Positions 5,491-59,630 of a stretch of DNA of 60,439 nucleotides are shown here, one piece after another (within the stretch, counting starts at the first letter, position 1; each line of letters opens with the position of its first letter). The position numbers were made by a program, and so were the translations under genes. A model generated the notes under the pieces. The model worked only from the letters and a program-made list of their open reading frames with translations, was not told the origin of the DNA and did not search any database. Source of the stretch: Gammaproteobacteria bacterium (lineage in GTDB: Bacteria; Pseudomonadota; Gammaproteobacteria; SZUA-140); NCBI GenBank assembly GCA_021648525.1, contig JAKISP010000022.1:1-60439 (forward strand), given 5' to 3'.

Positions 5491-6589
5491 TTACAGACCG
5501 CTCTTTAAGCTGGCCTCAATAAACTGGTCGAGATCACCGTCCAGTACGGCCTGGGTATTACCGGTTTCAACAGAGGTACGCAGGTCTTTGATGCGCGATT
5601 GATCCAGTACATAAGATCGAATCTGGCTGCCCCAGCCGATGTCGGACTTGGTCTCTTCTAATGCCTGTTGATCTTCGCTTCGTTTCTGCATTTCGACTTC
5701 ATACAGACGAGATTTCAGTTGCTTCATCGCCGTCGCACGGTTTTTATGCTGTGAACGATCATTTTGACACTGCACCACTACCCCCGATGGTTCATGGGTA
5801 ATACGCACCGCTGAATCGGTTCTGTTGACGTGCTGGCCACCAGCACCACTGGCGCGATAGGTATCAATACGCAGGTCAGCGGGATTGATCTCAATATCAA
5901 CATCATCATCAATTTCGGGCGAAACAAACACGGCCGCAAATGAGGTGTGACGACGGCTGCCAGAATCGAACGGCGATTTACGCACCAGGCGATGCACACC
6001 GCACTCGGTACGCAGCCAACCATAGGCATACTCGCCTTCATATTTAATCGTGGCACTTTTGATACCTGCGACTTCACCTGAAGAACATTCGATCAGCTCT
6101 GTTTTAAAACCACGCCGTTCACCCCAGCGCAGATACATACGCAGTAGCATCTCGGCCCAGTCTTGCGCTTCCGTACCACCGGAACCCGACTGGATATCGA
6201 CAAAGGCGTTGTTTGGGTCCATCTCGCCAGAAAACATGCGGCGAAATTCGAGCGCCGCGAGCTTGTCCTCAAGCACCGCCATATCTGCAATTACAGCGTT
6301 GGCGGTCTCTTCATCATTCTCATCCTCAGCGAGTTGCAATAGCTCCTGTCCTTCGCCCAGGCCATCCAGTAATTCGTCAAAGGTTCCTACCATGTTTGCA
6401 AGCTGGGAGCGCTCTCGGCCGAGTGTCTGCGCGCGCTCAGGGTCATTCCAGATATCCGGATTTTCTAGTTCTCGGATAACCTCGGTTAGCGCTTCACGTC
6501 GATTATCGACGTCAAAGATACCCCCTAAGGGCTTCCAGGCGCCCTTGCATATCTTTGATACGACCGAAAACCAGATTTAACTCCAACAT
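5491..6589 (-). CDS. prfB: Peptide chain release factor 2, expressed by programmed +1 frameshift
   Basis: RF2 recognises UGA and UAA stop codons and releases the nascent peptide. The coding sequence is in two frames. Twenty-five codons from the ATG at 6589 run to CTT TGA (6512-6517); after a +1 shift, 340 codons run from GAC (6511-6513) to the stop at 5491. The total of 365 residues equals E. coli RF2. The second frame contains the GGQ loop ([11 protein letters not shown]), the SPF tripeptide that reads UGA (VRKSPFDSG), and the C-terminus ending ASLKSGL. An annotation limited to the uninterrupted frame would start wrongly at an internal Met (6393) and lose about 65 residues. It is first in the prfB-lysS operon. 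Confidence 0.96.
6511..6526 (-). promoter_or_regulatory. prfB programmed frameshift site
   Basis: On the minus strand the bases read AGG GGG TAT CTT TGA C: an internal Shine-Dalgarno-like AGGGGG three bases before the slippery CTT codon and an in-frame UGA followed by C. This is the textbook autoregulatory signal. When RF2 is scarce the ribosome pauses at UGA and slips +1 into the main frame. Confidence 0.95.
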
Positions 6590-6832
6590 GTGACTTCCCA
6601 ATTAGCGCGTTGAAAATAGATAAGGGCTGGATTCTACAGGAAATAAAGAGTGAGGTCATGTAAGGCATTGCCTGATGAATTAACCATAACGGTAATCCTC
6701 ATCAATAAAATAAAGGAGAATTTGGCCTGCTTATTGCTTTTAGTAGCTTGAGTGCCAATTTCATACTAAGTGGCACATCAATTCATCTGTTTTGTAAGTG
6801 AGTAACGCGAAAACAGGGATGTGTAGAAAACG

Positions 6833-7381
6833 ATGAAAAGTAAATCAATTGAATCGTCATTATTTTGGCAAAACAGTGCGTGTTTAACGATTGCACTGCC
6901 GCTTATCATATTTTTTTTAGCGGCAAGCCAGACTGTGAAAGCGGATGGCTATAGCTTAATTCTCAATGGAAAGTCCATTCATGAACGACAACCTAAAAAA
7001 GGTTCTTTTAATGAAAAAAACTGGGGGCTTGGCCTGCAATATGATTATGAAATATACAAAGGGCATTGGCAGCCTTATCTAACAGCCTCTATTTTCAAAG
7101 ATTCATTTGAACAAAACTCATTTTACGCTGGTGGCGGAGTCATGAGGCGCTTTTCTCTTGATGATCTTTACGAAGACCTCCACTTCAGTGCTGGCGTTGT
7201 GGGATTTGTGATGACGCGCAAAGATTACTATAATCGCCGTCCATTTTTAGGTGCACTTCCTGCTTTCGCACTGGGTACTGATAAAGTCGCGCTTAATATT
7301 AGTTACGTGCCGAAAGTTGAGCCTAAGCTGGTTCCTTTATGGTTTATTCAACTGAAGATTTCTTTTGGAAATTTTGATTAG
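6833..7381 (+). CDS. PagP-like outer-membrane beta-barrel protein (possible lipid A palmitoyltransferase)
   Basis: 182 residues with a signal peptide (hydrophobic about 15-33, likely cleavage after VKA at about residue 37) and a mature part of about 145 residues, rich in alternating aromatic strands and ending with a Phe-rich strand (KISFGNFD). By-eye alignment to E. coli PagP places His50 (SIHER), Asp90 and Ser91 (IFKDSFE) at the catalytic His, Asp and Ser, and several further blocks agree: NEKNWG with NERPWG, AGVVGFVMTRKDYYN with AGVTARDNWNY, and a YVP near the end. PagP moves palmitate from phospholipid to lipid A in the outer leaflet. The call rests on remembered family sequence, so a related barrel of other function remains possible. 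It is a stand-alone gene, divergent from prfB. Confidence 0.55.
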   Translation: MKSKSIESSLFWQNSACLTIALPLIIFFLAASQTVKADGYSLILNGKSIHERQPKKGSFNEKNWGLGLQYDYEIYKGHWQPYLTASIFKDSFEQNSFYAGGGVMRRFSLDDLYEDLHFSAGVVGFVMTRKDYYNRRPFLGALPAFALGTDKVALNISYVPKVEPKLVPLWFIQLKISFGNFD

Positions 7382-7594
7382 GCAATACCGAAAACCCATC
7401 AAGAAACATTAAATGTTTATATTTTAATCATTCTTATTAAATCTATTTTTAGCAAAGTAAACCGGCCAATAACCGTGCTGGATAAGAAGTTCACATTTTG
7501 TAAGGATATAGGTACACTCAATCGATGTTGCTAGTTATGCGTCGTGTAATCTAGCAGTAGATTATGGAAAATTTTTTTGATTAGAGGTAATGAC

Positions 7595-7801
7595 ATGATT
7601 ACAGGTACCGTTAAATGGTTTAACGAATCCAAAGGTTTTGGTTTTATCACCCCGGCTGATGGCAGTGCAGATGTTTTTGTTCACTTCTCAGCCATTGCGG
7701 GAGATGGATTTAAAACTCTAGCAGAAGGACAGGCCGTTAGCTTCAACGTTGAAGATGGCCCCAAGGGTCTACAGGCAACTCAAGTTTCAGCTGATGCATA
7801 A
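7595..7801 (+). CDS. Cold-shock domain protein (CspA family)
   Basis: 68 residues, the full length of a single cold-shock domain, with both nucleic-acid-binding motifs (GFGFIT and DVFVHFSAI). Such proteins bind single-stranded RNA and DNA and melt RNA secondary structure. The ATG at 7595 follows a good ribosome site (AGAGGTAA) and gives the usual MxxGTVKWFN start; a start 18 bases earlier would add six odd residues. The roughly 210-base upstream gap is long, as in csp genes with structured leaders, but no cold box was identified. A terminator follows at 7827-7862. Confidence 0.93.
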
Positions 7802-7826
7802 ATAGAGCAGCAATGCTCTTGCTTTC

Positions 7827-7862
7827 TACCCTTGCGAAGGCGATTCGCAGGGGTATGTTTTT
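7827..7862 (+). terminator. Rho-independent terminator after the cold-shock gene
   Basis: Arms 7827-7838 and 7844-7855 pair over 12 bases with one G-U, around a 5-base loop, and are followed by TGTTTTT. It begins 26 bases after the stop codon. Confidence 0.8.
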
Positions 7863-59511: not shown

Positions 59512-59630
59512 ACACTTGATGTGGATTTGATTTGCCCAATGAAGCATCACTACGAATAGCAGGCTAGGCGCCGTATACGGACCCGTACGTACGGTGCTGT
59601 GGAAGGGGGCGAGTAGCTCGCTATCCCGAT
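59512..59630 (+). ncRNA. 3' end of a second group II intron
   Basis: From about 59566 the sequence reads as domain V (GCCGTATACGGACCCGTACG and its pairing ACGGTGCTGTG) and domain VI ending CTATCCCGAT at 59630. It faces the other way from the minus-strand copy at 57590-57715. It lies just before the antitoxin stop codon. Confidence 0.75.

Follow-up and report, generated by a model that had tools for sequence, protein, structure and literature searches.

The gene at positions 6833-7381 of the window, the whole analysed stretch of 60,439 nucleotides, is assigned the following role with a probability of roughly three in four. It would encode a secreted, eight-stranded outer-membrane acyltransferase of the PagP superfamily, which moves an acyl chain from a stray outer-leaflet phospholipid to lipid A through His50, Asp90 and Ser91, lies outside the canonical PagP clade, and in part of two other families has a c-di-GMP-I riboswitch ahead of its gene. 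The barrel and the triad had already been proposed in the initial annotation. Two findings go beyond it: the protein belongs to a group without the N-terminal helix and scores under the cut-off for canonical PagP, and, as the surprise of the analysis, c-di-GMP riboswitches stand ahead of the PagP-like gene in relatives. A broad group in Gammaproteobacteria and Zetaproteobacteria that lacks this helix and has changed gate residues would show which parts of the enzyme are needed for the reaction. The riboswitch of the relatives would couple c-di-GMP, the signal of biofilm growth, directly to the acylation of lipid A at the molecular level.

The PagP-like gene and its sequence

The open reading frame 6833-7381 on the forward strand begins with ATG, codes for 182 amino acids and has exactly the stated boundaries. 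Its features, together with the evidence for each, are as follows:

6833..7381, forward strand: predicted gene of a PagP-superfamily outer-membrane acyltransferase, 182 amino acids with signal peptide (PF07017, 58.2 bits; AlphaFold2 eight-strand barrel; best PDB match PagP)
6833..6943, forward strand: signal peptide, about residues 1-37, a hydrophobic core and then VKA/D (sequence; AlphaFold2 helix 10-32; cleavage site judged by eye)
6980..6982, forward strand: codon of His50, aligned with E. coli His33 (alignments)
7100..7105, forward strand: codons of Asp90-Ser91, aligned with E. coli Asp76-Ser77 (alignments)
7136..7138, forward strand: codon of Gly102, aligned with E. coli Gly88 (glycine in 65 of 66 rows of the group described below)

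In E. coli PagP, His33, Asp76 and Ser77 are the catalytic residues and Gly88 is the residue of the hydrocarbon ruler, while the gates of the barrel, named the crenel and the embrasure, carry the gate prolines 28, 50, 127 and 144. Residues 32-163 of the window protein match the PagP model PF07017 with 58.2 bits and an E-value of 8e-16, which is above the superfamily cut-off of 24. The only credible solved relatives found by phmmer among the PDB sequences are two entries of E. coli PagP (E about 3e-5); two other matches, with E-values of 0.26 and 1.5, are discounted. The match to PagP is well beyond chance.

In an alignment of 14 rows, the window protein shares 25% identity with E. coli PagP. 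The proposed agreement of His50, Asp90 and Ser91 with the PagP triad is confirmed: the three residues stand on the E. coli triad columns, are invariant in 14 of 14 rows and belong to the 19 invariant columns of the alignment. The annotation had also stressed the occurrence outside the enterics, which is true and not unique, as a sample of 369 genomes from the class contains 15 with a PF07017 match, the own genome included. Lipid A is expected in this organism because its genome carries LpxC (366 bits).

Predicted fold and position of the triad

The AlphaFold model was built on a shallow alignment of 24 rows and reaches a mean pLDDT of 81.9 and a pTM of 0.71. It contains a helix at residues 10-32, read here as the predicted signal peptide, followed by eight strands (37-50, 65-72, 79-89, 95-108, 117-128, 138-148, 152-159 and 169-178), and the mature barrel begins near residue 38. 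A Foldseek search with the model places PagP structures at ranks 1-3, with E-values of 2.6e-9 (3gp6), 1.6e-8 and 8.9e-7. By VIA-align, the model is aligned to the crystal structures of PagP with Z 18.0 (rmsd 4.9, 152 aligned) and Z 16.9 (rmsd 2.7, 139 aligned), followed by OmpA (Z 13.6) and PagL (Z 13.2). In the alignment with Z 18.0, whose first residue is 17, the signal helix may be paired with the helix of PagP. The NMR structure of PagP reaches only Z 10.8, under several unrelated barrels. The fold had been set as a test of the PagP-like eight-strand barrel; with eight predicted strands and PagP closest in the PDB, that claim holds, and a different fold is ruled out to the extent that a prediction permits.

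His50 is the final residue of strand 1, and Asp90 and Ser91 come just after strand 3. With a periplasmic N-terminus, strands 1 and 3 would each lead towards the cell surface, and the three residues would lie at the extracellular side, at the ends of these two strands.

A group without the N-terminal helix

From 123 hits, 87 distinct matching reading frames were obtained and sorted by hand into 12 canonical rows, 9 rows of a sister group and the remaining 66 rows, which form the group of the window protein. Rows stand for distinct reading frames rather than genomes, and contig ends truncate some of them. Within these 66 rows, the catalytic histidine is present in 64 (two gaps), and the aspartate and the serine in all 66. 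The glycine of the ruler (Gly102 in the window) is kept in 65, and the same count, with one gap each, is found for Arg129, Pro143 and Pro160, the equivalents of E. coli Arg114, Pro127 and Pro144. G102, P143 and P160 of the window protein retain the ruler and two of the gate prolines. The positions of Pro28 and Pro50 are occupied by N45 and N63, and asparagine is found there in 61 and 63 of the 66 group rows, respectively; in the canonical rows, proline is present in 8 of 12 at either position.

The second difference concerns the N-terminus. Passages of PMC2887491 describe a 19-residue amphipathic helix ahead of strand 1 of canonical PagP, and also state that E. coli PagP deprived of this helix folds and assembles with a lower stability. 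The room for such a helix was measured as the number of residues that separate the catalytic histidine from the 12-mer of highest hydrophobicity, taken as the core of the signal peptide and counted from its end. This distance has a median of 46 in the canonical proteins (range 38-67, 12 rows) and of 18 in the group of the window (range 12-38, 64 rows), where it is at most 24 in 63 rows. With so short a stretch, nearly all group rows cannot accommodate a helix of 19 residues. In the model of the window protein, strand 1 starts already at residue 37 and the helix of canonical PagP is missing.

The window protein is therefore a member of the PagP superfamily and not a canonical PagP, since three features of the latter fail together: the score against the PagP equivalog model NF008271 of NCBIfam (49 bits, under the cut-off of 155), the N-terminal helix, and the gate prolines 28 and 50.

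The nine rows of the sister group (loci L044, L045, L097, L098 and L101-L104 for those with asparagine or serine) differ at the position of the catalytic aspartate, which is asparagine in seven, serine in one and aspartate in one. The PagP fold can therefore exist with an altered triad.

Phylogeny and distribution

The tree comprises 77 rows. Rows that lacked the search motif or were shorter than 110 residues were dropped, and two more are absent because two reading frames of one locus shared a name. E. coli, the other enteric-like rows, family f42 and L003, an odd member of the family of the window, form one canonical clade, set off by a branch of length 2.98 (support 100/100). Outside it are the genus of the window, families f82 and f124, and the Zetaproteobacteria. 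The canonical clade joins the other rows at an open fork. Because the forks between the groups are in part open too and the tree is rooted at its midpoint, it does not establish that the rows outside the canonical clade form a clade of their own.

PF07017 is found in seven of nine other genomes of the genus and in 13 of 55 relatives, the own genome counted. The profile of the group matches 21 of 398 genomes in a sample of the phylum; for family f82 the count is 12 of 20, and for family f124 it is 25 of 40. The relatives that bear names, 28 in all, are assemblies from metagenomes and are labelled Gammaproteobacteria, Chromatiaceae, Thiotrichaceae, Muproteobacteria, Sulfuricaulis, Ghiorsea and others, with a few Beta- and Alphaproteobacteria among them; Sulfuricaulis and Ghiorsea have a lithotrophic lifestyle.

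Additional copies were observed in several genomes. On contig C45 of the own genome, a short remnant (L002:1501-1602) resembles positions 94-136 of the PagP profile with an E-value of 6e-5, and is apparently a decayed second PagP copy. The relative G009 (L016) also has a second PagP match, under the cut-off and with one stop codon. Two PagP-like genes stand in tandem on contig C55 of G806 (L124/L148), and G782, G783 and G784 each have two copies on separate contigs.

A c-di-GMP-I riboswitch ahead of the gene in relatives

The aptamer of the c-di-GMP-I riboswitch (Rfam RF01051) was found just 5' of the PagP-like gene in five of 17 loci and then in three of 20 further sources. When whole-genome aptamer searches were compared with gene positions, together with cmscan of the loci, 14 of 37 PagP-bearing genomes had an aptamer on the same strand and directly upstream, seven of 12 in family f82 and seven of 25 in family f124. 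Judged by contig positions, four of the first five aptamer loci and all three later ones are within these 14, while L031 belongs to none of the 37 genomes. The aptamers ahead of PagP-like genes score 57-73 bits with the covariance model, where the gathering score is 35. The aptamer loci are L026-L029, L031, L052-L054, L108-L111, L116, L118, L119, L126, L135, L139 and L141-L144, several of which are the same places fetched twice.

Altogether, 54 aptamers are listed in the 37 genomes at an E-value of at most 0.001, five of them under the gathering score. If they were placed uniformly, 0.0035 would be expected within 350 nt upstream of the gene on the same strand, against the 14 genomes observed; these are not 14 independent events, because related genomes share ancestry. 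In the tree, the riboswitch label falls on one clade of f124 (7/7 rows) and one group of f82 (8/12 rows). This requires a minimum of two changes, as counted against the csp rows only, and the starred branches allow one origin. In five of the 14 genomes (G100, G777, G327, G794 and G795), the aptamer beside the PagP-like gene is the only c-di-GMP-I aptamer found, a count that could fall because some candidates in these genomes went unscored. The riboswitch-preceded gene of G794 (L141) has a stop codon within the matched stretch and may be broken.

The distribution of the aptamer is partial. At gathering score, none was found in the other 23 PagP-bearing genomes (27 loci), nor in five loci assigned by contig positions to f207 (Ghiorsea-type) and eight loci of other families. 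RF01051 gave no match in the window, including none in 6394-6900 at E-values up to 10, and none in the own genome among the 150 of 217 candidates scored.

Possible action of the switch

A start codon was found by script in 14 of 15 leaders, some of them unsure, with a spacer of 66-151 nt between the aptamer and the start. A Shine-Dalgarno-like match is present in 12 of these 14 leaders. In all seven leaders of f124, L142 included, the motif GTACTCC lies upstream of GGAGTAC or GGAGTAT, which holds the Shine-Dalgarno site. The hairpin of this repeat in G351 (f124) has a folding energy of -24.5 kcal/mol and a z-score of -3.26. This suggests that the repeat of f124 is able to hide the Shine-Dalgarno site and so to control translation; covariation adds almost nothing here because the repeat varies little. 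The one f82 leader that was folded, from G778, was no better than shuffled sequences (z 0.35). An intrinsic terminator was considered as the expression platform and is unsupported, with runs of at least four T between aptamer and start in only four of 14 leaders. While the aptamers themselves are detected by the covariance model, their effect would be exerted on translation, and a switch to ON or to OFF is possible alike.

A broader reading regards the helix-less PagP group as an output of c-di-GMP, and the case for it is evenly balanced. The riboswitch, present in part of at least two families, would release or hide the ribosome-binding site, so that the acylation of lipid A would follow the biofilm signal directly, and the genus of the window would have kept the enzyme and either lost the switch or never had it.

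Genomic neighbourhood

The PagP-like gene stands between the divergent prfB gene and a cold-shock (csp) gene, with the following feature downstream:

7533..7858, forward strand: leader of the cspA-type thermoregulator and cold-shock gene, csp coding from 7595 (Rfam RF01766, 80.2 bits, gathering 78; csp reading frame)

A separate promoter-like site for the csp gene lies at 7490-7518. On the reverse strand, upstream of the prfB reading frame, the sequence AGGGGGTATCTTTGAC at 6511-6526 resembles the known programmed frameshift site of prfB. Elsewhere in the window, positions 59566-59630 match a group II intron model with 41.5 bits (gathering 40).

The csp gene lies about 210 nt after the PagP-like gene, and in E. 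coli pagP is followed by cspE. Within the genus of the window, a csp gene follows in six of eight loci (the window, L018, L019, L021, L022 and L024); L020 is a locus without it, and the flank of L023 covers just 189 nt. A csp gene with a cspA-type leader also follows the PagP-like gene at L017:3108-3550, as in the window. A motif search did not detect the arrangement in 21 and 10 other loci, nor in 65 of 66 loci of a third set, including the five rows nearest to E. coli (L092-L095 and L100), the exception being the window itself.

Because E. coli pagP also precedes cspE, a shared and ancient arrangement was considered. It was rejected; as E. coli and the genus of the window are far apart in the tree, the adjacency is read as having two origins. 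On the tree, the csp label needs two changes when set against the riboswitch rows only, and the starred branches by themselves force only one.

Proposed function and its alternatives

With homology, predicted fold, residue conservation and LpxC observed, the product is most likely an outer-membrane lipid A acyltransferase, for which catalysis, donor, acceptor and chain length may be proposed as follows. The gene product would be secreted and would form an eight-strand beta-barrel in the outer membrane. The acyl donor would be a phospholipid misplaced in the outer leaflet, and His50, Asp90 and Ser91 at the outer face would move its acyl chain onto lipid A. The chain is probably palmitate, because the glycine of the ruler is kept.

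The conservation of the triad leaves the acceptor lipid unfixed. A PagP-fold acyltransferase acting mainly on another outer-leaflet lipid, such as phosphatidylglycerol, would read the changed gate and the missing helix as a different substrate path, in keeping with the asparagines at two gate prolines in 61 and 63 of the 66 group rows. PagP-mediated palmitoylation of glycerophosphoglycerol is reported for Klebsiella (PMC9403492). This alternative is nevertheless unlikely, given that the group retains the triad, the glycine of the ruler and the remaining two gate prolines, and that LpxC is present.

Considerably less probable is an outer-membrane phospholipase or esterase, in which the same fold and triad would pass the acyl chain to water. 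The conserved serine, histidine and aspartate would suit such a reaction, and PagP is assayed through its cleavage of a palmitate ester (PMC7617971); yet the barrel is nearest to PagP (Z 18.0 and 16.9), and the lipase PagL follows with Z 13.2. Least credible of all is a non-catalytic barrel with the triad residues kept for structure, for although barrels of this size are often structural, aspartate and serine are present in 66 of 66 group rows while the loops vary. Several points weigh against the proposed lipid A acyltransferase as well: the score under the PagP equivalog cut-off, the missing helix and the changed gate residues 28 and 50, the shallow alignment behind the model, the low Z of the NMR structure of PagP, and the sister group with its altered triad.

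Comparison with known systems

The PagP of E. coli type (CrcA; PF07017; PDB 1thq, 3gp6 and 1mm4) shares with the window protein the eight-strand barrel, the His/Asp/Ser residues and the equivalents of Gly88, Arg114, Pro127 and Pro144. In contrast, the window protein is only 25% identical to it, has no room for the helix, carries asparagine at the sites of Pro28 and Pro50 and scores below the equivalog cut-off. Another divergent PagP-like enzyme, with a low similarity to the enteric one, is PA1343 of Pseudomonas aeruginosa.

The aptamers of the relatives agree with the c-di-GMP-I (GEMM) riboswitch RF01051 at gathering level and differ from it in the PagP-type target, which has no counterpart among the literature matches listed. 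These matches, in one search the best 15 of 385, include no work linking a PagP-type gene with a c-di-GMP riboswitch. Among the papers searched, the words pagP, c-di-GMP and riboswitch occur together in one, PMC9228545. Variants of the c-di-GMP-I riboswitch with c-AMP-GMP as the ligand also exist (PMC7266159).

The closest physiological parallel is the biofilm-induced palmitoylation of lipid A in E. coli, described in PMC6106083. In that system the route runs through RcsB and GadE, and the main text of the paper uses neither the term c-di-GMP nor cyclic di-GMP; the likeness to the riboswitch-bearing relatives lies in palmitoylation that is raised in the biofilm.
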